From NCBI GenBank assembly GCA_030386875.1, contig CM059566.1:37980068-38044067 (forward strand): a stretch of 64,000 nucleotides of DNA. Direction: 5' to 3'. Below are positions 9,224-52,261 of this stretch, one piece after another. The notes beneath the pieces were generated by a model, which saw only the letters and a program-made list of their open reading frames with translations, ran no database searches and was not told where the DNA came from. The stretch's first letter is position 1; every line of letters starts with the position of its first letter. This stretch comes from Morinoia aosen. Lineage: Eukaryota > Arthropoda > Malacostraca > Amphipoda > Talitridae. Position numbers and translations under genes: made by a program.

Positions 9224-9429
9224 TCCTCCTGTGGCGTTGCTCAGGAAGTGTGTCGCCACCTGACACTAACGCTACCCTGCCAAACCGCCAGCTCGATCAG
9301 CCACCTGACACCAACGTCACCGAACCAAACCACCTCCTCAAGTTGCTGCTGGTGATTAGGTGTCACCCGCGTAAAAAAATAATGTGGGGCATGGCGTTCC
9401 GCTGTGTGGAGGCAGGTATTCAGGATACG

Positions 9430-10827
9430 GAGTTGCAAGAGAGTAGATCTACCTCTAGCTGGTACTATAGCATCAGGTCTACCCCACTATAGCGTGGATC
9501 TACCTCTAGCTGGTACTATAGCATCAGGTCTACCACACTATAGCGTGAATCTACCTCTAGCTGGTACTATAGCATCAGGTCTACCACACTATAGCGTGGA
9601 TCTACCTCTAGCTGGTACTATAGCATCAGGTCTACCACACTATAGCGTGGATCTACCTCTAGCTGGTACTATAGCATCAGGTCTACCACACTATAGCGTG
9701 AATCTACCTCTAGCTGGTACTATAGCATCAGGTCTACCACACTATAGCGTGGATCTACCTTTAGCTGGTACTATAGAATCAGGTCTACCACACTATAGCG
9801 TGGATCTACCTCTAGCTGGTACTAGAGCATCAGGTCTACCACACCATAGCGTGGATCTACCTCTAGCTGGTACTATAGCATCAGGTCTACCACACTATAG
9901 CGTGGATCTACTTTTAGCTGGTACTATAGCATCAGGTCTACCACACTATAGCGTGGATCTACCTCTAGCTGGTACTATAGCATCAGGTCTACCACACTAT
10001 AGCGTGAATCTACCTCTAGCTGGTACTATAGCATCAGGTCTACCACACTATAGCGTGAATTTACCTCTAGCTGGTACTATAGCATCAGGTCTACCACACT
10101 ATAGCGTGGATCTACCTTTAGCTGGTACTATAGAATCAGGTCTACCACACTATAGCGTGGATCTACCTCTAGCTGGTACTATAGCATCAGGTCTACCACA
10201 CTATAGCGTGGATCTACCTCTAGCTGGTACTATAGCATCAGGTCTACCACACTATAGCGTGGATCTACTTTTAGCTGGTACTATAGCATCAGGTCTACCA
10301 CACTATAGCGTGGATCTACCTCTAGCTGGTACTATAGCATCAGGTCTACCACACTATAGCGTGGATCTACCTCTAGCTGGTACTATGGCATCAGGTCTAC
10401 CACACTATAGCGTGGATCTACTTTTAGCTGGTACTATAGCATCAGGTCTACCACACTATAGCGTGGATCTACTTTTAGCTGGTACTATAGCATCAGGTCT
10501 ACCACACTATAGCGTGGATCTACCTCTAGCTGGTACTATAGCATCAGGTCTACCACACTATAGCGTGGATCTACTTTTAGCTGGTACTATAGCATCAGGT
10601 CTACCACACTATAGCGTGGATCTACTTTTAGCTGGTACTATAGCATCAGGTCTACCACACTATAGCGTGGATCTACTTTTAGCTAGTATTACACATTGAG
10701 GTTAGGTCACTGATGGATATTACTTGTTTCCATACATGTAATTTAGCGATAAACACTTAATTTGTATACCATAAACTGCACCTGGGTAGGCGATATATAA
10801 CGGTAGACCTCACGCTATGGTTGCACC
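9430..10827 (-). mobile_element. 9-bp-TSD MITE with expanded interior (copy A)
   Basis: The right end (10730-10827) is the reverse complement of the unique left half of the MITE copies at 15387, 45720 and 51790: GCACCTGGGTAGGCGATATA, then GGTAGACCTCACGCTATGG and a terminal GCACC. CAGGATACG (9421-9429) and CAGGATATA (10828-10836) flank it and match at 7 of 9 positions, fitting the 9-bp duplications of the other copies. The interior is the 51-bp minisatellite, so this ~1.4-kb element is a MITE of about 0.19 kb swollen by module amplification. Confidence 0.72.
9447..10690. repeat. 51-bp minisatellite, ~24 copies
   Basis: The unit is GTGGATCTACCTCTAGCTGG, TACTATAGCATCAGGTCTAC, CACACTATAGC. Recurrent variants are CTTTTAGC for CCTCTAGC, GTGAATC for GTGGATC and AGAATC for AGCATC. 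The TTTTAGC variant clusters towards the right end, suggesting directional spread. The 17-codon period leaves a 431-codon frame open, which I do not regard as a gene. The reverse complement matches the subterminal segment of a dispersed MITE. Confidence 0.95.
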
Positions 10828-10943
10828 CAGGATATATCATCATGATACCTGCCTACAATTATTCAAGAGGGACGGATGCTTCTAGGAAAAGAAAAGTCTG
10901 TCTCACTGTTTGTTCACAAGTCTTTCTTGAGAAGAAGAGTTGA

Positions 10944-15377: not shown

Positions 15378-15763
15378 CAAACTTTGGGTGCTACTATAGC
15401 GTGAGGTCTACCGCCTTATATCACCAACCCAGGTGCAGTTTGAGTTGTTCAAATAGTTTATCGCTACATTAAATGTATGGAAATAACAAATATCCATTAT
15501 TAACCTAACATAACCTCATACTATAGTACTAACTAGAAGTAAATCTCATGTTATAGTGTGGTAGATCACACGCTATGGTACTAGCATGAGGTAGGTATCA
15601 TGCTATAGTGTGGTAGATCTCACGGTATAGTACTAACTAGAGGCAAATCTCATGTTACAGTGTGGTTTCTCTCTATTTCTTAAATTTTACTATAAGCAGG
15701 AATGTCTTTAGTTTTAACTTGACCCTGTAGTCTGTATCATCTTCTTTATTTTTTACGTCACAT

Positions 15764-16796
15764 TTGACTTACTGTTTCTTAATCTTTATGACTGACCATG
15801 TTGATATATTCGATGATATTGATCCAGATCTCAATCATTTGAATAGATTGCATCCAAACCTAAATGAAACTGGGAATTGTAAGTACCTAAATATTAAAGA
15901 ATTCAATGAATCGATGAGAAAAACCTGTAACGATCTCTCAGTATTATGTTGGAACTGTAGGTCCATTTATCCGAAAATAGATGAAATATCTTGTACTATC
16001 ACTGAGCTAAACAGCAATTTTGATGTTCTCAGTTTCACCGAAAGTTGGCTAGATGACTCAACTAAAGACCTAATTCAAATTCAGAACTATAATAGCCATC
16101 ATTCACTCCGTAGCAACAAACGTGGTGGTGGCATCAGTACGTACATATCTAAGCACATATCATCGAAAATCATTATAAGTGCAACTATGAATCGTGAACA
16201 TATTGAGACTCTATTTATAAAACTAACGAAAAATGGTGAACGGATTGTACTTGGGACTGTATATAGGCCCCCAACGGCTTGCAACATTTCTTTCCTGAAC
16301 GAGCTTCAAAGCATAATATCTCAGTTTAACAAATCTCTATACAATGACATAATAATTTGCGGGGATTTCAACTTCGATCTTCTTCAATATGAAAGCTGTG
16401 AACAAATCTCAAACTTCATAAATGTTTTTCAGTCTAACTCCTTCCTTCCAATCATCACGAAACCTACGCGTATTACATCTGAATCTGCCACGCTGCTCGA
16501 TAATATTTTTATGTTAGATCCGACTGATTTTCTTACAGGAATAATAATTTCCGACTTATCTGACCATTTTCCTGTGTTTCTCATCAAGAAAAATGTCTAT
16601 AGTCCCTGCAACAGCCCACATGCTGAGACTTTTTCATACGGTTGTATAAACGAATATAACTTGGGAACAATGCGAACTGTTCTAGAAGAATTAATGCCAT
16701 CATTGGACATCTATGAACTAGACAATAATGCGATTAACATTGACCAAGCAATACTAAATCTAACTGAAACTATAACGACCGCATATAACCAGTGTT
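15764..16796 (+). pseudogene. LINE ORF, APE-type endonuclease part
   Basis: The N-terminal part of the LINE polyprotein nicks target DNA to prime reverse transcription. AP-endonuclease landmarks appear in order: VLCWNCRSI near residue 60, the catalytic glutamate in FTESWLDD near 90, GTVYRPP near 165, CGDFNFD near 199, a LLDNIFM block near 245 and SDLSDHFPVF near 263. An alternative start is the ATG at 15788. Reading is lost at 16797, where a tRNA-like element with a 12-bp duplication is inserted; past it the same protein resumes at about 17033 with a TSPKNRQKPW-like linker. Confidence 0.88.
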
Positions 16797-17020
16797 CGAG
16801 GAGCTCACGAGATTCGAACTCAGGACTTAAATTCACCGCGCCAAAACGCTTTCGATCGCGCTACCGTTCTGCTTTCTGGCGCGGTGAATTTAAGTCCTGA
16901 GTTCGAATCTCGTGAGCTCCTCGTACATTTATTTGTTTGAAAAACCTTGTGGAAGCAGTAGCTTTCCGTACTAGATTTGTAACTGTTTCTGGGGGTGACT
17001 TGACTTTGAACTCTCGATAC
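16797..17020 (-). mobile_element. tRNA-like foldback retroposon (224 bp) inside the LINE
   Basis: ATAACCAGTGTT is duplicated exactly at 16785-16796 and 17021-17032, defining the insert. 16797-16843 and 16877-16923 are perfect 47-bp inverted repeats around a 33-bp loop. On the minus strand GGTAGCGCGATCG resembles a pol III A box and GAGTTCGAATCTC a B box/T-arm. The opposite arm carries the same B-like box, so the tRNA-like 3' half is present twice, head to head. The remaining ~97 bp (16924-17020) is an unrelated body. The 12-bp duplication indicates LINE-driven retroposition. Confidence 0.8.
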
Positions 17021-17032
17021 ATAACCAGTGTT

Positions 17033-19025
17033 GTCCAATAATCACCCGCACAATTTCGCCGAAAAATAGACAAAAGCCTTGGATTACTGAAGATATCGTG
17101 ATCAATATAAAGAAACGTCAAGCATACTTAGCCTTACTATACGAAGGACGAATCTCTAGATTACCGTATAACAGATTCAGGAATCATGTGACAAATCAAA
17201 TACGAACATCGGAACAAAACTACTTTACGCACAAATTTACTGAATACAAAACTGATGTTAAAAAAACTTGGCACCTGCTTAATTCATGCTATAGACCGAA
17301 TAATAACGCCAAAAAACAATTGAGTCCATCGTTCACGAAAATGTAAAATATCATGATAAACAAGATATTGCAACAGTGTTTAACAACTTTTTTATAAATA
17401 TAGGGAAAAATATAGCCGATAGTGTCGTTAGTGAACCTACAGACCACTTGCAATACATGGACCATGTCCGTGAACACAACTCTTTCTTTTTCACGCCAAC
17501 TAATCCCTCCGATGTAATTACGTGCATAAACAACTTGAAAAATAAATCAAATGGATTAAATACATTTTCAGCTAAAAATGTTAAGTCTATTGCTGATATA
17601 ATAGCACCGTGCATATCTAATATTATCAACCATTCACTTTCTCAAGGTATCTTTCCCAACTCTCTCAAAACTGCCATAGTCACGCCTATTTTTAAAAATG
17701 GTGATAAAAGCTTCGTTAATAATTATAGACCTATCTCTGTTTTACCAATTATGAGCAAAATATTTGAAAAAATTGTGTATAAAAAAGTGCATTCGTATTT
17801 TGAACAAAAATCTTTTCTTTATGACAGACAATACGGTTTTCGTTCTTAGAAATCAACGACACAAGCTCTATTAAATCATTTACAGTACCTTTACTCTAAT
17901 ATAGATGAAGGAAAGGTTGTTTTCTCCGTTTTTCTTGACTTTCGAAAAGCATTCGACTGTGTGGACCATAAGATATTACTCTCGAAACTACACTGTTATG
18001 GCATTCGTGGAATTGCCCATGATTGGTTCAAATCATACCTAACAAATCGGAAGCAATACGTTGTCGTTGACGACGCAAAATCGGACCCACAGACAATTAG
18101 CCATGGAGTTCCACAAGGATCTGTCCTTGGGCCTCTCCTATTTCTGATATTTATAAATGATATTATCCAATCAACATCAATTTTCAAATTCATACTTTTT
18201 GCCGATGACAGCACGCTTTCTACGGTCCTTCCGAGCCAAAATCCCGCTATGATTGCGGAAAGTATAAATAATGAACTCCATAATGTTTCATTATGGCTTA
18301 AAGCTAATAAAATAAGCCTCAACATCGATAAAACAAAATATATTACATTCTCATACAAGAAAAGCATATCTCTCCAGCACATAAAAATTGGCGAAGGTGA
18401 AATTGAAGAAACCAACTCATGCAAGTTTCTGGGCATCATAATAGATAAACATCTGACCTTTAAAGAGCAAATCGCTCATATTAGTTCTAAATTATCGAAA
18501 TCCATCGGAATCCTGAATAAAGTTAAAAATTACCTGCCTGAAACAGCTTTACGAATGCTCTACCGAACGCTCATTTCACCATACTTGCAGTACGGAATAG
18601 AGGCATGGCACGGAACTGATAAAAATAAAACCAATGAAATTTTTACTCTGCAAAAAAGAGCAATCAGAGCGGTAAAGAATCTAGAATATAATGCTCACAC
18701 AAATGATTCATTCAAAAATTTACAAATACTTAAACTTTCAGATCTCTACAAAATCTCCATTTGTAATTTCATTTACAAAACATTAAGAAATGATGGCGAC
18801 AATAGCCTGAAACTCTTATTAAGTGCTCAGACTGGTCATCACGACCATTTAACCCGAAATAGAAGTAAATTCATGCTTCCTTATTATTCAAAGGCCCGGT
18901 CGCAACACAGTATCCTCTTCGTTGGAACTAAAACTTGGAACTCAATACCTGCGGAGATCCGTGATAGTAATTCTTACAAGGTATTCAAAAGAAATCTCGA
19001 GACTCACTTCCTATCGGAATATTAG
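17033..19025 (+). pseudogene. LINE ORF, reverse transcriptase part (broken)
   Basis: The C-terminal part copies the element's RNA into DNA. The linker runs to 17340, where a frameshift moves reading to the frame of 17376. YRPISVLPIMSKIFEKI and RQYGFRS precede a TAG at 17847-17849; the same frame continues through 17850-19025. Further RT motifs are FLDFRKAFDCVDH (motif A aspartate), GVPQGSVLGPLLFLIFINDI, FADDSTL (catalytic Asp pair, Phe for the usual Tyr) and CKFLGIIID. The thumb/C-terminal region ends at LETHFLSEY. Two lesions plus the inserted element make it a pseudogene, though sequence decay is otherwise light. Confidence 0.9.
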
Positions 19026-19594
19026 TCGTGTAAGATCACCAAGTCAAATCCTGTCTCCTACATGACTGTTTCCAATAATGATATTTGCCATGGGTAATAT
19101 GTAATATGTAATTTGCCTTCAGTCTGCTGTTAAATCTTTTATCGAATATACTGTTAAATATAGTCCATATAACCTATATTGTAAAATGAAATATCTGATA
19201 TCGAGTAAATTATCTCACTGATCAGTCAAATGCGAAACTAGGTTAAGTGATTTAGGTTAAACATTATTGTACACCTTAGAATAATGTTGATGGTAGGATG
19301 CCCCAGAAGTCGCTGAACTTATTCGGGCCCACAGGTAGCTATATTCAAACTTGTCCATTGTACTAGACTTAAGAAACATTCTACCTCTGTATCTCCTGTG
19401 GTAAATAAATTGTTTAAAATTGTTTAAATTGTTTGGTACACCTCACGCTATATAGTACTAGCTAGAAGTAGATATCATGCTATTGTGCGGTAGGCATCAC
19501 GCTATAGCAGCACCCCTCACGCTACAGTACTAGCTAGAGGTAGATCTCATGCCACGGTGTGGTAGGCCTCACGCTACAGCAGAACCAAACATTG

Positions 19595-22857: not shown

Positions 22858-23073
22858 ACGTTTTCACACTTCTTATGAGAGATACATTTTTTTCAAAGCA
22901 GCATAGTCGTTTTCCAAACTCTGCTACTTACATTATAACTTAACTAAGCCCCACACATGTGCGTCCAGCAGCAACAAGCGCATCAAGTCACCCCGCCGTC
23001 AGAGCGTGCATGTCAGAAGCATCAAGAGCTCAGCCCTTCATTCCCATGATCCGCACTTCCGGAAACAGCTTAA

Positions 23074-24312
23074 TTAGAGCGAGCGGTGGCGGGGTGGCGG
23101 GCGGAGTTATAATTAGAGCGAGCGGTGGCGGAGTGGCAAGCGGAGTTATAATTTGAGCGACCGGTGGCCGATCGAGTGGCGGGCGGAGTTATAATTAGAG
23201 CGAGCGGTGGCGGGGTGCCGGGCGGAGTTATAATTAGAGCGAGCGGTGGTGGAGTGGCGGGCGGAGTTATAATTAGAGCGAGCGGTGGCGGAGTGGCGGG
23301 CGGAGTTATAATTAGAGCGAGCGGTGGCGGAGTGGCGGGCGGAGTTATAATTAGAGCGAGCGGTGGCGGAGTGGCGGGCGGAGTTATAATTAGAGCGAGC
23401 GGTGGCGGGGTGCCGGGCGGAGTTATAATTAGAGCGAGCGGTGGCGGAGTGGCGGGCGGAGTTATAATTAGAGCGAGCGGTGGCCGATCGAGTGGCGGGC
23501 GGAGTAATAATTAGAGCGAGCGGTGGCGGAGTGGCGGGCGGAGTTATAATTAGAGCGAGCGGTGGCGGAGTGGCTGGCGGAGTTATAATTAGAGCGAGCG
23601 GTGGCGGAGTGGCTGGCGGAGTTATAATTAGAGCGAGCGGTGGCGGAGTGGCGGGCGGAGTTATAATTAGAGCGAGCGGTGGCGGAGTGGCTGGCGGAGT
23701 TATAATTAGAGCGAGCGGTGGCGGAGTGGCTGGCGGAGTTATAATTAGAGCGAGCGGTGGCGGAGTGGCGGGCGGAGTTATAATTAGAGCGAGCGGTGGC
23801 GGAGTGGCTGGCGGAGTTATAATTAGAGCGAGCGGTGGCGGAGTGGCTGGCGGAGTTATAATTAGAGCGAGCGGTGGCGGAGTGGCGGGCGGAGTTATAA
23901 TTAGAGCGAGCGGTGGCGGAGTGGCTGGCAGAGTTATAATTAGAGCGAGCGGTGGCGGAGTGGCGGGCGGAGTTATAATTAGAGCGAGCGGTGGCGGAGT
24001 GGCTGGCGGAGTTATAATTAGAGCGAGCGGTGGCGGAGTGGCGGGCGGAGTTATAATTAGAGCGAGCGGTGGCGGAGTGGCTGGCGGAGTTATAATTAGA
24101 GCGAGCGGTGGCGGAGTGGCGGGCGGAGTTATAATTAGAGCGAGCGGTGGTGGAGTGGCTGGCGGAGTTATAATTAGAGCGAGCGGTGGCGGAGTGGCTG
24201 GCGGAGTTATAATTAGAGCGAGCGGTGGCGGAGTGGCTGGCGGAGTTATAATTAGAGCGAGCGGTGGCGGAGTGGCGGGCGGAGTTATAATTAGAGCGAG
24301 CGCTGCGGAGTT
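23074..24312. repeat. 39-bp minisatellite, ~31 copies
   Basis: The unit is GGCGGAGTTATAATTAGAGC, GAGCGGTGGCGGAGTGGCG. Variants GTGGCTGG, GGGGTGCCGGG and GGCCGATCGAGTGGCG divide the array into blocks; the CCGATCGAG variant marks 23166 and 23484, suggesting a ~318-bp higher-order unit. The period is divisible by three, leaving forward (GGVIIRASGGGVA) and reverse (LALIITPPATPPP) repeat frames open. Neither is supported as a gene. Confidence 0.95.
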
Positions 24313-27876: not shown

Positions 27877-28030
27877 TACAATTTTTAAACAATTTAAACA
27901 ATTTATTTACCACAGGTGATACAGAGGTAGAATTTTTCTTAAGTCTAGTACAATGGTCAAATTTGAGTATAGCTACCTGTGGGCCCGAACAAGTTCAGCG
28001 ACTTCTAGGGCATCCTACCATCACGTTATT

Positions 28031-28721
28031 AAATTATATTACATTCTCATACAAGAAAGATGTATCTCTCCCATGCATTAAAATTGGCGAAGGTGAAATC
28101 GAAGAAACCAACTCATGTAAGTTTCTGGGCATCATAATAGATAAAAATCTGACCTTCAAAGAGCACATCACTCATATTTGTTCTAAATTATCAAAATCCA
28201 TCGGAATCCTAAATAAAGTTAAAAATTTTCTGCCTGAAACAGCTTTACAAATGCTCTACCGAACGCTCATTTCTCCATACTTGCAATACGGAATAGAAGC
28301 ATGGCACGGAACTGATAAAAATAAAACCAACAAAATTTTTACTCTGCAGAAAAGGGCTGTCAGAGCGGTAAAGAACCTAGAATATAATGCTCACACAAAT
28401 GATTCTTTCAAAAATTTACAAATACTTAAACTTTCGGATCTCTACAAAATCTCCATCTGTAATTTCATTTACAAAACATTAAGAAATGATGGAGACAATA
28501 GCCTAAGACAATTATTGACTGCGCAAACTGGTCATCACGACCATTTAACCCGAAATAGAAGTAAATTCATGCTTCCTTATTATTCAAAGGCCAGGTCGCA
28601 ACACAGTATTCTCTTCGTTGGAACCAAAACTTGGAACTCTATACCTGCAGAGATCCGTGAATGTAATTCGTACAAAGTATTCAAAAGACATCTTGAGTCT
28701 CACTTCCTATCAGAATACTAG
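28031..28721 (+). pseudogene. LINE RT C-terminal fragment
   Basis: An open frame covers the region after the RT catalytic core: CKFLGIIIDKNLTFKEHI, SPYLQYGIEAWHGTDKNKTN and the terminal HLESHFLSEY. It lacks endonuclease and RT motifs A-C, so it is non-functional. No stop interrupts this stretch, which suggests recent insertion. The frame runs upstream into the reversed 3' UTR by chance. Confidence 0.88.
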
Positions 28722-29135
28722 TCGTGTAAGATCACCGTGGCGAAATCTTGCCTCCTACATGTAACTAATGATAATGTCATAATGTAACTTGCCTGTGTAC
28801 CATAACCAATCTTCTCTCTGCTCTTGAATCGTATTATCGAACATACTGTTAAATATAGCCGATTTGACCTATATTGTAAAATACAGCATAAAATATCGAG
28901 CTAATTATCTCAATGATCAGTCTAATGCGAAACTAGGTTAAGTGAACTAGGTTAAACATTTTTGTACACCCTAGAATAACGTGATGTTAGGATGCCCTAG
29001 AAGTCGCTGAACTTATTCGGGCCCACAAGTAGCTATACTCAAATTTGACCATTGTACTAGACTTAAGAAAAATTCTACCTCTGTATCACCTGTGGTAAAT
29101 AAATTGTTTAATTGTTTAAATTGTTTAAATTTTAA
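28031..29135 (+). mobile_element. 5'-truncated LINE copy inserted in a LINE
   Basis: It is the same family as 15666-19436, starting at the position equivalent to about 18338 (ATATTACATTCTCATACAAG) and continuing to the AAATTGTTTAA-type tail. It is ~1.1 kb and close to the first copy over its whole length. This is the usual product of incomplete target-primed reverse transcription. Confidence 0.9.
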
Positions 29136-29313
29136 ATTCTAGGGTGTACAAAATGTTTAACCTAGTTCACTTAACCTAGTTTCGCATTAGACTGATCATT
29201 GAGATAATTAACTCGATATTTTACGCTGTATTTTACATTATAGGTCAAATCGGCTGTATTTAATAGTATGTTTGATAAAACGATTCAAGAGCAGACAGAA
29301 TATTGGTTATGGT

Positions 29314-37204: not shown

Positions 37205-38865
37205 CCTTGTGGCAGTTGTGGCAGGCAGGCTGTGGCAGGCAGGCATGCTGTGGCAGGTAGGCATGCTGTGGCAGGCAGGCGGGCTGTGGCAGGCATGCGG
37301 GCTGTGGCAGGCATGCAGGCTGTGGCAGGTAGGCATGCTGTGGCAGGCAGGCGGGCTGTGGTAGGCCGGCGGGCTGTGGCAGGCGGGCGGGCTGTGGCAG
37401 GCGGGCTGTGGCAGGCAGGCGGGCTGTGGCAGGCCGGCGGGCTGTGGCAGGCGGGCGGGCTGTGGCAGGCGGGCTGTGGCAGGCAGGCGGGCTGTGGCAG
37501 GCAGGCGGGCTGTGGCAGGCATGCGGGCTGTGGCAGGCAGGCGGGCTGTGGCAGGCATGCGGGCTGTGGCAGGCCGGCGGGCTGTGGCAGGCGGGCTGCG
37601 GCAGGCAGGCGGGCTGTGGCAGGCAGGCGGGCTGTGGCAGGCATGCGGGCTGTGGCAGGCCGGCGGGCTGTGGCAGGCCAGCGGGCTGTGGCAGGCCGGC
37701 GGGCTGTGGCAGGCCGGCGGGCTGTGTCAGGCGGGCGAGCTGTGGCAGGCGGGCGGGCTATGGCAGGCATGCGGGCTGTGGCAGGCAGGCGAGCTGTGGC
37801 AGGCAGGTGAGCTGTGGCAGGCAGGCGGGCTGTGGCAGGCAAGCGGGCTGCGGCAGGCAGGCGGGCTGTGGCAGGCAGGTGAGCTGTGGCAGGCAGGCGG
37901 GGTTGTGGCAGGCAGGCGGGCTGCGGCAGGCAGGCGGGCTGTGGCAGGCATGCAGGCTGTGGCAGGTAGGCATGCTGTGGCAGGCAGGCGGGCTGTGGCA
38001 GGCATGCGGGCTGTGGCAGGCATGCAGGCTGTGGCAGGTAGGCATGCTGTGGCAGGCAGGCGGGCTGTGGTAGGCCGGCGGGCTGTGGCAGGCGGGCGGG
38101 CTGTGGCAGGCGGGCTGTGGCAGGCAGGCGGGCTGTGGCAGGCCGGCGGGCTGTGGCAGGCGGGCGGGCTGTGGCAGGCGGGCTGTGGCAGGCAGGCGGG
38201 CTGTGGCAGGCAGGCGGGCTGTGGCAGGCATGCGGGCTGTGGCAGGCCGGCGGGCTGTGGCAGGCCGGCGGGCTGTGGCAGGCCGGCGGGTTGTGGCAGG
38301 CCGGCGGGCTGTGTCAGGCGGGCGAGCTGTGGCAGGCGGGCGGGCTATGGCAGGCATGCGGGCTGTGGCAGGCAGGCGAGCTGTGGCAGGCAGGTGAGCT
38401 GTGGCAGGCAGGCGGGCTGTGGCAGGCAAGCAAGCTGCGGCAGGCAGGCGGGCTGTGGCAGGCAGGTGAGCTGTGGCAGGCAGGCGGGGTTGTGGCAGGC
38501 AGGCGGGCTGCGGCAGGCAGGCGGGCTGTGGCAGGCAGGCGGGCTGTGTCAGGCAGGCGGGCTGTGGCAGGCAGGCGGGCTGTGGCAGGCAGGCGGGCTG
38601 TGGCAGGCAGGCGGGCTGTGGCAGGCAGGCGGGCTGTGGCAGGCAGGCGGGCTGTGGCAGGCAGGCGGGCTGTGGCAGGCAGGCGGGCTGTGGCAGGCAG
38701 GCGGGCTGTGGCAGGCAGGCGGGCTGTGGCAGGCAGGCGGGCTGCGGCAGGCAGGCGGGCTGTGGCAGGCAGGCGGGCTGTGGTAGGCAGGCGGGCTGTG
38801 GCAGGCAGGCGGGCTGTGGCAGGCAGGCGGGCTGTGGCAGGCAGGTGGGCTGTGGCAGGCCAGTT
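37205..38865. repeat. 18-bp (and 14-bp) GC-rich minisatellite with ~709-bp higher-order unit
   Basis: The basic unit is GGCTGTGGCAGGCAGGCG. Shorter GGCTGTGGCAGGCG units and variants with CATGC, CCGGCG, TAGGC or GTGAGCT are interspersed. The marker GTAGGCCGGC occurs at 37361 and 38070, and the order of variants after each is nearly the same, giving a 709-bp higher-order repeat. The last ~350 bp is nearly homogeneous 18-mers. Frames of up to 436 codons on both strands are by-products. Confidence 0.95.
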
Positions 38866-45510: not shown

Positions 45511-45718
45511 CATGTGAAAGTTCGCGCGTGCGTCCCCCGTGGTACACATGGTGGTCAGCGTCGTAGCCAAGTGTATCCGGTGCGCCGGTGAGGAACATCT
45601 GCTGTGAACATCTCGATCCAAGCGCGCTACATCCAAGCTGCCAGTCCGCGCTTCCGTCTCCTGCAGCTGTCCAGGAAGCTCAAAACCTTCTTTTCTGTTG
45701 ATCTTGGTTGTAATTCTG
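45511..45718. other. Unique GC-richer DNA
   Basis: An 88-codon minus-strand frame crosses this region without recognisable content. Confidence 0.3.
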
Positions 45719-45719
45719 T

Positions 45720-45909
45720 AGTACCATAGCGTGAGGTCTGCCGCCATATATCGCCTACCCAGGTGCGGTCTCAGATCCAGAAACAGTGTTTGTCGCTAAA
45801 TTAATTGTGTGGAAATGAGTGATATCCACTGGTAATCTAACCTCATGCTAAGGTATGATACTAGCTAGAGGTAGATCTCATGCTATTGTGTGGTAGACCT
45901 CACGCTATC
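45720..45909 (+). mobile_element. 9-bp-TSD MITE, single module (copy C)
   Basis: It begins GTAGTACCATAGCGTGAGG, includes ATATATCGCCTACCCAGGTG and one 51-bp-type module with ACTAGCTAGAGGTAGATCTC, and ends ACCTCACGCTATCAGCATC. Flanks TGTAATTCT and TATAATTCT match at 8 of 9 positions. Confidence 0.78.
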
Positions 45910-45918
45910 AGCATCTAT

Positions 45919-46455
45919 AATTCTTCATCGCTTCCCGCACTATTTGTAATTCTTGATCGTTCTTTCATTTTAAAGCTTCCAATTTTCACTTACTTACTCG
46001 CTTCTTAAATAACCTGTTTCTCCTGGATTCTCATGGTCCACTCATATACATTTTTGTATTTTAAACATTAATTTTATTTTCCTAATATTAGATTTTTCTT
46101 CACCAATTTCTCGTCTTCAATATTCGACTTTTAGAGTTTATCGCCCCTTCAAATACTTCTGTTTTCTCCAGTCTCCTCTCTCTCATTTTTTTCCGTAATT
46201 GAATCTCATTAGGTTTTGAAGTTCATCTCACTGTCTTACTTTTCTTAGTTTCTCTTCACCAGTTTTTGTTCGCCTAAATTTCTCTCCCGTATATTTTCTA
46301 GAGTTATGCTCTCTAAAGTAATATCTCCTCTCGAATATTTTCTCTCCTCAGCCTGTTTCCATTCACCTGGCCGACTTCAAACCAGGTGTATGATTCAAAA
46401 CTGATTAACACAAAGTACGGTCGCTTTGTATGGCCTTGGTGCACCTATAAACCGC
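45919..46455. other. Pyrimidine-biased unique DNA
   Basis: The top strand is rich in TTCTC/TCTTC words from 45940 to 46370, but I see no regular repeat or gene. Confidence 0.4.
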
Positions 46456-49475: not shown

Positions 49476-51780
49476 CATGGTTTGTGTGAAGTAAGATATT
49501 TGTCAGCAAGCCTATGAGAGCATACCTAGAATAAAAAAGAGCACAGAGAAGCCTAAGAAGTAAAGTGCGCAAGAATCGTGAGAACATCTGAGCGTTGCTG
49601 TTGAGGGAAGAGAAGGGAATTCTGAAAGAGTACGCTGAGAGGGTGAAAGCTGAAGCAGCTGTAAGGGATTGATTCACCAGAGCACAAGTTCCGCTGATGC
49701 CTTTTATGCTTCTCGGCAACATGGCGGTAATGTCACACGAGTGGTCAGAATATAATGGCAATTTTGAACAGAATCTAAAAGTGACAAGAGTTTTTCTCAA
49801 TGTAATTTTTATCAGCACTTTCGCGATTTTGCGTACAAATTATGAAAAATTCCATCTATGGTATGTAAAGACTTGTAGATTCGTAATATAAAGTTTTTAG
49901 ATTGCTAGATTGTGTGTTTTATTATTTATTCAGGATTAAATGACTGATTTGCTCTCGTCATCTGGAGCTATGCTGCGTTTGGAAGAAAGAAATAGCGAAA
50001 AAGCGAAAAAATTATAGAAAACTGATTCTGTATACGTTCATCTGACCGTTTCAAAGTTGGCGAAACACTAGTGGGACGTTATGATTTTATGAGCAAGCCT
50101 GGAGATAGAGGAGGCTCTTCTATTTCGCTTTGTTACAGCATGAATTATCCTGGGCAATTTAGTAGAACACTCACTTCTCCGATTATTCTAACCTTGTCAT
50201 AGGTTTAAAATTGGTCATCCATCTGAAAATGGCTTCTTCTAAAATTGGCCGGCCACCCGTCTAGAATTGGGCGTCTGCTTGCCCGTTTGAAATTGCCACA
50301 ACCCGTAAGACGTTTCAAGAATAACTGCTTGCACCCTTCCTGCGACACAGTTGGACCAGAGAGAGATCCAATACTCTGCTACATAATCCAGTAAATAATA
50401 ATTTTCCTAAAAATTAGCATGATCTTTGGTCGGACCTAACGAAAATTATACGTTCCACTCACCCTCCCAACGTAGCAAAAAATTGCGAAAGAAAAACATT
50501 ATAACCGCCTTACTACGATGTCTCAAACGTGAAGTAACACTTTTTTCTTCCGATTTTCCTGGAACGAACGCCTTTTCTCGGAATGAAAAATACCACCTTA
50601 ACTCGAATAAAGTTAAGAATATTGAATCTCGACACTGGATTACAAAGATCTCATATTCAACCTCCTGTTTCTAACTTTTTCATTCATAGATAAACATAGT
50701 AAAATTCAAACACACACTTTTATAATACTTCAACCCTTGGGTGTCCATCGTTGACTGTGTAATTTCAACCAACCCAGCCTTCACGGTGGTCCTGAATGAA
50801 GGTCACTCTGGTTCGTCTTGGATCACTGCTTGCGACTTTTCGTTCAGAAACTGTCCTCGACTCCATACCGAGTAACAAAAGCACTCACCGTGAACTCGGT
50901 GTTCAAATGCGATCGGTTATACGTAAACGAGCAGTGGTGATATATTCTGATCTTGGATTTCTGGCACTCGCGTCAGGAAACCCAGGTAAAGAGCATCTAC
51001 GAGTCGGCTCTTCTTCGTTTGAGAGGGAGATTAAAATGCCTTAACTGCCCACTTAGTCACCTCCAGCCCTAAGTCTCGACTTGAGGAACAAGCCTCGAGC
51101 TGATTAGCTGTTAAGTCTCGTAATTGGTTAGGCTTATAGCCAGTGTCTTAACTGCTTGAGTGTATTGCGCCTTTGTATTAAAGCTTGGCTTTTGTTTGAT
51201 GTTGAAGCTAAGATCACTTTCTGAAGCCATTGTTTACTACCGGAACTGCGCCAGTGAAAGGTGGTGGACGAGTGAAGATCTCTGGTATGCAACAATCCAC
51301 TTCTGAGAGCGTATACTGGAGATGAACTTTTCTTCAGTAATGTTGTATTTCTTGTATTATGTATGGTAAGCTTGAGCTTATGTGTGAGATAATGGACTCA
51401 CTAGTACCTTGTATCTAAATGGTTTTAATTTAAAAATTAAAAGTCGAGTTCACTTTATGATGCCTGAAAATATCCTTCGACTATAAAAGACTACAATATC
51501 AGAATAGAGCTTAAATAGATTTTCATCATTGACCAAATCACACAATGTATCAGAGTGTCATTATTCACAAATAAAGCGGCAAAAAAATGATCAGTGCATA
51601 GAATTTAAAAAAAAAGGACATGAGCAGTTTGCTCAGATAAAATTTGTGTCAAATTAATTTAAGGGATGAATAACTTATGAGTAGCCCAGAGTAACTTATA
51701 TTATTCCACACACCTTAGAAACGGTAAATATTTAGAAGATATTTCAACACTTTGTCCTGAAGAGGTTCGATATGCATTTA
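49476..51780. other. Unique DNA, no supported gene
   Basis: Frames at 49447-49818 (minus), 50426-50674 and 50796-51044 have no recognisable domain. 50220-50300 holds a loose AAATTGGCCG/AAATTGGGCG repetition. Confidence 0.35.
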
Positions 51781-51789
51781 AATATTTGT

Positions 51790-51971
51790 GCTACTATAGC
51801 ATGACGTCTACCGCCATATATCGCCTACCCTGGTGCAGTTGGAGATGTACAAATGTTTATCGCTAAATTAAATATATGGAAATAAGTAATATCCGTTAGT
51901 AACCGTTAGTAGTATTAGCTATAGGTAGTTCTCATGCTATAGTGTGGTAGACCTCACGCTATAGCAGCACC
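51790..51971 (+). mobile_element. 9-bp-TSD MITE, single module (copy D)
   Basis: Terminal inverted repeats GTGCTACTATAGCATGACG and ACCTCACGCTATAGCAGCAC bound a ~182-bp element. TAAATATTT precedes the left end (51781-51789) and follows the right end after one extra C: a perfect 9-bp duplication. It holds one ~51-bp module (GTATTAGCTATAGGTAG... ATGCTATAGTGTGGTAGACC). It is the reference compact form of this family. Confidence 0.85.
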
Positions 51972-52261
51972 TAAATATTTACAATTATTTTTTAATGCAC
52001 CACTTCAGCAAAAACACACTCAACAAACTTCTCGTGGGCACTCGTTAACTATCCTCCTCATCCATCAAGGGCGAGATCGAAACGCGATTGGTCATGATGG
52101 CAGTCTCGTCGGAGGCAGAACTGATCTGAGGCATGGTAAACTTGAATGCAAACCTCATTTGGCGGCCTAGTAAACCGTCCTTCATTACCCGTCCTGGCGA
52201 AGATCCTGCGTGGAACAGCCTCGGGTTTTGTTATGATCTTCGGCTTCAATCTGCTTCAGAA
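51972..52261. other. Unique DNA
   Basis: No supported feature. Confidence 0.35.

Follow-up and report, generated by a model that had tools for sequence, protein, structure and literature searches.

A dispersed MITE with a direct-repeat end as a probable source of minisatellites in Morinoia aosen

Four copies of one MITE in the window

The window, by which we mean the whole 64,000-nucleotide stretch analysed here, contains four copies of one MITE, starting at 9429, 15387, 45717 and 51787, which have common ends and a unique half, just as the original prediction had it. The first lies on the reverse strand at 9429-10827 and combines a unique left half that includes the left terminus GGTGCAACCATAGCGTGAGG (10689-10827, reverse strand) with a minisatellite array on the same strand, in which a unit of 51 bp is repeated 24.4 times with 96% matches (9446-10688); the approximately 24 modules that had been read at 9430-10827 are thus borne out. 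Its target-site duplications (TSDs), at 9421-9428 and 10828-10835, agree at 7/8 positions by eye (CAGGATAC/CAGGATAT). The second copy, on the forward strand, had been described as about five modules at 15387-19585, a reading that has to be replaced: the 5' part (15387-15666) is the left half followed by ~2.8 units of 52 bp, the 3' part (19440-19586) is two 72-bp units of another register that is flush with the terminus (element positions 127-198), and between them, also on the forward strand, sits an inserted LINE with endonuclease and reverse transcriptase domains (15667-19437, boundaries approximate). The TSDs of this copy occupy 15379-15386 and 19587-19594 (AAACTTTG/AAACATTG, 7/8 by eye). 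The remaining two copies, both on the forward strand, are compact and have one module each, as had been claimed for copies placed at 45720 and 51790. One spans 45717-45915, with TSDs at 45709-45716 and 45916-45923 (TGTAATTC/TATAATTC, 7/8 by eye), and the other 51787-51971, with TSDs at 51779-51786 and 51972-51979 that match by eye at 8/8 positions (TAAATATT/TAAATATT). The automatic TSD call agrees with the reading by eye for the copy at 51787, took the wrong end for that at 15387 (5/8), and did not return both termini for those at 9429 and 45717.

The LINE within the second copy itself carries an insert of 224 bp (16797-17020) that contains inverted repeats and is flanked by a 12-bp duplication, ATAACCAGTGTT (16785-16796 and 17021-17032). 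This insert looks SINE-like, which would make three mobile elements nested at 15387-19586. A second LINE fragment, partly inverted, is found at 27884-29300 and is 83-93% like the LINE at 15667-19430. Across the 51-bp array there is an uninterrupted frame of 438 codons (9383-10699), because the array unit is 51 bp; we do not claim a coding use, as most variants change a residue and the open frame is probably due to chance. Nor do we claim a higher-order structure for this array, lag 7 giving 0.977 and the other lags 0.959-0.976.

Anatomy of the element

An alignment of compact copies gives a compact form of ~198 bp with termini GGTGCT...AGCACC and with GGTGCTRCTATAGCGTGAGGTCTACC as the terminal inverted repeat (TIR) at both ends. 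One form of the TIR has 1034 exact matches in the genome, some of them within arrays, and its reversed control has 0; a first look at the family yielded 2558 candidates genome-wide, 40 of which were scored. For the 103 of 151 loci at which both termini were located, mean flank identity is 0.672 at a length of 8 bp, compared with 0.301 for mismatched controls, and falls to 0.26-0.33 at lengths of 5, 6, 7, 9, 10 and 11 bp (controls, 0.27-0.29). The TSD is therefore 8 bp long and not 9 bp as first proposed, a length at which identity is near that of the control. Twenty of the 103 TSDs are perfect and 42 match at 7/8 or better (mismatched control, 0.25%). With its TIRs, a TSD of fixed length, many similar copies and a short body that is non-coding as judged by length alone, the element is a MITE. 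It is not of the foldback (Tetris) type, its TIRs being short and its arrays mostly one-sided, with one locus (L036) that has arrays at both ends.

The right end of the element is built of direct repeats. The final 71 bp of the consensus contain three copies of CTCAYGCTATAG, with spacings of 30 and 22 bp, so that mispairing among the three would give periods of 22, 30 and 52 bp; for the 52-bp unit, the seed is 14 bp of exact homology. The outer CTCAYGCTATAG copy lies inside the TIR, in keeping with the earlier observation that the module overlaps the inverted-repeat end.

Arrays of the family across the genome

The assembly comprises 1.99 Gb in 29 contigs. One of its arginine kinase genes, compared with PDB chains, marks the source as crustacean-like: the highest score goes to 4rf6, a two-domain chain (709 bits over two stretches, about 358 and 350 each), followed by 5zhq (648 bits), a two-domain taurocyamine kinase (643) and Pro c 2.0101 (642), with the 1m15/1bg0 group at about 567; 5zhq and Pro c 2.0101 are decapod proteins, and 1m15/1bg0 come from horseshoe crab. 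In this assembly, the usual unit of the MITE family is 52 bp. A regular 51-bp period was seen only in the window array among the arrays read, with isolated 51-bp steps in three others (L043, L048, L066), so the 51-bp module that had been put forward stands for the window array and falls for the family. We fetched 29 arrays of the 52-bp unit, which were drawn from the array matches listed and hence have no bearing on frequency, and two of which (L055 and L063) represent one insertion. In 23 of them the array is preceded by sequence from the left half of the MITE, which in a few is incomplete or broken up; in four more the MITE right end follows the array, and in the other two (L050, L060) the array runs to the end of the stretch read. 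For the 52-bp module, then, we encountered neither flanks unrelated to the MITE nor a MITE-free satellite, the two outcomes that had been named as speaking against the prediction, since 27 of the 29 arrays come with some part of the MITE beyond the module. The smallest of these arrays has 6 modules and the largest, L040, which extends up to the end of its stretch, has at least 162; the span of 1 to ~24 modules that had been anticipated is thereby widened to 1 to at least 162 units. The window array and the arrays of the family are minisatellites, consisting of head-to-tail units of 10-100 bp whose number varies between copies of the same insertion within the one assembly.

Internal duplications and their seeds

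The frequency of internal duplications was taken from a sample chosen to avoid array-selection bias, based on a 33-mer of the unique, module-free left half that has 84 exact places genome-wide (reversed control, 0). Two of the places share one stretch (L155), so the sample consists of 83 stretches, each 613 bp long. Seven of them repeat an insertion that another stretch already represents and were left out (L013, L126, L136, L138, L152, L144 and L147; L151 and L152 were judged one insertion by eye from common sequence, the flank test not listing that pair), which leaves 76 insertions. When these are mapped to the consensus by dynamic programming with jumps allowed, 30 of the 76 have an internal tandem unit of at least 18 bp, three of the 30 (L029, L079, L106) being doubtful since their aligned pieces are weak or partly outside the element. 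The number of right-hand units, counted in the 71 copies with an alignable left half, is one in 48, two in 10 and four to thirteen in 13, the longest of which ends at the stretch limit.

The duplications are unevenly placed, with 23 in the seed-bearing right part and seven in the seed-free left part (p 1e-4 in a binomial test against the length share, 80/198; L079 and L106 among the left seven are doubtful). A seed of at least 11 bp with at most one mismatch is used by 15 of the 30 duplicated insertions and is available to 0.39% of the 16,471 possible units of at least 18 bp, an excess that supports the suggestion that direct repeats within the element act as seeds; the other 15 lack a strong seed.

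We consider it likely that minisatellites grow here from a dispersed MITE with a direct-repeat end, by seed mispairing after insertion. The three CTCAYGCTATAG copies, the outermost of them inside the TIR, would supply the short direct repeats at the element's end; after insertion, their mispairing, whether through replication slippage or unequal exchange, would duplicate a segment of 22, 30 or 52 bp. That first duplication would create a long direct repeat; additional rounds of unequal exchange could then enlarge it to a minisatellite whose units are partly homogenised within the locus. Slippage or exchange is the molecular step that the pattern of units suggests, and the genome's general tendency to form minisatellites would presumably supply the rate.

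That general tendency is strong enough for one to ask whether the MITE is special at all. In the sampled flanks, 86,228 bp hold 40 merged arrays (0.46 per kb, 14% of bases), tandem arrays make up ~23% of the window (period of at least 10 in both cases), and of randomly placed 195-bp segments 20% overlap an array in the flanks and 33% in the window, figures that would fit an element struck by chance in a genome that makes minisatellites everywhere. We nevertheless regard chance as an unlikely explanation: the choice of unit follows the seeds, the right part exceeds the left, and it is the left half alone that resembles the background. TRF reports an array inside the element in 23 of the 83 stretches and outside it in 13; counted from the TRF rows, arrays fall in the left half in 4/83 and in the right part in 20/83. 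Measured against ~0.5 births per kb, which is our own estimate, the left half hardly departs from background, and the right part stands several-fold above it. The MITE seems to focus a general minisatellite process rather than to create one, and the birth of a minisatellite from a transposon, as originally predicted, is supported in this form, against a minisatellite-rich background and with half of the duplicated insertions owing nothing to a strong seed. Other arrays of the window include one of 18 bp x 92 at 37220-38860 and one of 39 bp x 32 at 23071-24311. TIR-like flanks were sought on the other 21 window arrays tested and none was significant, by a test that also missed the known MITE array.

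Unit types and terminus-flush units

About ten different units of this one family have been amplified in separate insertions, with lengths besides 52 bp of 22, 30, 39, 43, 47, 72, 79 and ~129 bp. Those of the right part are 30 bp (L085, L156), 22 bp (L095, L112), 47 bp (L121), 52 and 30 bp combined (L098), 72 bp (L107, L019 and window 19440-19586) and 20 bp (L107); those of the left part are 39 bp (L073, L036), 43 bp (L068), 79 bp (L151, L152) and ~129 bp (L146, L155, L093, L069), where L036, L068, L069 and L073 come from outside the 83-stretch sample.

Five of the unit types are flush with a terminus and have no homology at the junction (element positions 1-39, 2-44, 1-129, 127-198 and 179-198), and a flush unit is present in 7 of the 30 duplicated insertions as against 3.3% of possible units. 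One source of such units would be the nested insertion of one copy into another with later loss of the duplicated part, which would account for blunt junctions within a single outer TSD. We hold this to be very improbable and reject it for the 39- and 43-bp units, as the intermediate expected for them has 0 matches genome-wide, in a search with an exact 21-base pattern that is of limited sensitivity to decayed copies and that covers these two units. A second source could be linked to transposition itself, if the transposase-cut terminus of one sister were joined blunt to an internally broken other and the resulting flush unit then expanded; the product might be expected to start or end flush at the element end, with a single outer TSD. 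The flush types and their excess over possible units fit such blunt joining, as do the lack of a nested intermediate for the 39/43-bp region and an outer TSD kept at 7/8 in L073, L155 and L069. Against it, the carriers have junctions in common, with ~129|1 at four places and 198|127 at six, so the separate flush events may number only about five, spread by transposition or exchange; moreover, non-flush units with little or no homology exist as well (51-116/50-127 in L151 and L152, 7-28 and 6-149 in L057, and others), and the 52-bp arrays have no need of such a route. Blunt joining seems to us possible but doubtful. Slightly more doubtful again is a scheme of two routes, in which seed mispairing at the right end would operate alongside blunt joining of cut termini to broken sisters, with the flush units (39, 43, 72 and 129 bp) expanding and perhaps leaving the element as free arrays.

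Some 39-bp arrays do appear to stand free of the element. Arrays of this unit, which corresponds to MITE positions 1-39, occur at L157, L158 (C6:20365000-20369300), L160 (C18:64114200-64115700), L036, L159 and L161, and are ~3-4 kb long at C18 and C6; at the ends that were read on C6 (L157, L158) and C3 (L161), no clear further part of the MITE was seen. The 72-bp terminus-flush register is likewise found at length in L162 (C2:6535700-6536700), where ~13 units run to both stretch ends.

Recurrent expansion and copies of the same insertion

Expansion is observed at many separate insertions. When nearest relatives are taken by left half, expanded copies have 5.0 same-label neighbours where 6.0 are expected (21/71 expanded), and in a wider set 8.0 where 14.7 are expected (42/121 expanded). 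Such scattering speaks for recurrent births, although the power of the test is modest because the copies are star-like. A single spreading lineage of expanded copies was accordingly rejected, although the test has little power where classes are rare (dimers, 4; flush-72, 5; end arrays, 3). Modules also tend to resemble their own array: of 394 sampled modules, 221 have their best match in their own locus alone, 61 match another locus better and 112 are tied. Median left-half divergence is 0.100 for expanded and 0.101 for compact copies (Spearman -0.06), and within this narrow age range we discard age as the driver of expansion; the equal age of expanded and compact copies also counts against the seed-mispairing reading, since simple growth over time would not predict it, narrow as the range is.

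These data also bear on whether arrays might multiply through transposition instead of lengthening where they sit, multi-module elements being favoured because each module adds transposase-binding motifs. The subterminal TIR motif is repeated in each module, and tandem binding sites have been proposed for Galileo in the available text of PMC3573991. We find this quite unlikely, a little more so than a mere chance hit on the element, since expanded copies are unclustered and no more or less diverged than compact ones, modules more often resemble their own locus, and 48/71 insertions have one unit. A point against the seed-mispairing reading, on the other hand, is that TSDs match less well in expanded copies (at least 7/8 in 12/36 and at least 6/8 in 14/36) than in compact ones (30/67 and 42/67), with p 0.008 within the 33-mer set, a weakness that arises partly because ends were misplaced.

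Differences in unit number can be seen between loci with common flanks, which represent a single insertion that was duplicated together with the DNA around it. All four pairs with an expanded member differ. L143 and L144 have 2 and 1 modules, the direction being either gain or loss, and a local variant is present in both L143 units and also in L144; L055 and L063 have 18 and 23 modules; the left half is present twice in L146 and once in L147; and L151 and L152, one insertion as judged by eye, differ in their 79-bp units. In seven other same-insertion groups, all compact, unit numbers agree. Two further listed pairs, L028/L068 and L038/L069, are one place each, fetched twice.

Relation to known systems

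Tandem repeats born from MITEs and TIRs, and the seeding of arrays by short repeats, are established according to the portions available of six sources (PMC4079207, PMC6947457, PMC2872659, PMC3573991, PMC9659126, PMC4596501); what is new is the many registers in one family. A close parallel is the Xmix MITE and Xstir of Xenopus (Hikosaka and Kawahara 2004, as cited in the excerpts of PMC9659126 and PMC6947457), where tandem repeats likewise derive from a MITE terminal region, whereas the present family has about ten units that have undergone amplification in separate insertions, many of them predicted by internal direct repeats. Tetris and TIR-220 of Drosophila virilis also have tandem repeats of variable number inside the TIR and larger arrays beyond the element, with an allelic difference of three versus four repeats (PMC4079207, in the text accessible). 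Tetris has long TIRs, 220-bp units and, as far as that text goes, three structurally complete copies (PMC4079207), in contrast to the 198-bp MITE described here, with units of ~20-129 bp in dozens of insertions. In Galileo of Drosophila mojavensis, an element of the P superfamily, direct tandem repeats in the TIR similarly expand and contract, but there a ~210-bp repeat is present two or three times, in a single subfamily, according to the same partial text (PMC3573991), compared with up to 162 or more short units here. The BrickBuilt MITE of Porphyromonas gingivalis has a minisatellite of 23-bp units between leader and tail, with inverted-repeat ends; it is bacterial and has one unit type, with 19 copies in a named strain, and the sections available of PMC4596501 contain no compact-to-expanded series for it. 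Finally, the short-flanking-repeat model (Haber and Louis 1998, via the extract of PMC6947457) likewise has a duplication at short direct repeats followed by expansion; what sets the MITE apart is that identical seeds are at work in numerous copies in parallel, and that the half without seeds offers an internal comparison. In the open-licence literature searched, insofar as its text was available, we found no single family yielding so many unit types in parallel.

Systems of this kind are thus known, and the present one is unusual in its scale and in the clean tests that it allows. The start of a minisatellite is usually observed once per locus and after the fact; here there are many parallel cases, in which one sequence of known structure is present at many loci with 1 to 160 or more units, so that the effects of seed length, spacing, position and chromatin become measurable in replicate, with the half of the MITE that lacks seeds as an internal comparison. 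The MITE also provides an identifiable origin for some of the abundant tandem repeats in the sampled parts of the genome.

Superfamily and candidate partners

The TSDs of hAT elements are 8 bp long and often read nTnnnnAn. The 37 good TSDs of the MITE fit hAT in their length but not in their motif, which is approximately GAWWWWTC. Among the 100 of the 1034 TIR matches that were listed, there is no inverted pair of exact TIRs 1-10 kb apart, and the TIR was not found at the one Merlin-type transposase copy examined. The genome contains 101 matches to PF12762 (Merlin-type, IS1595-type transposase), for example at C27:58937547-58938017; some of these lie in open frames of more than 300 codons, and the two strongest are on C27.
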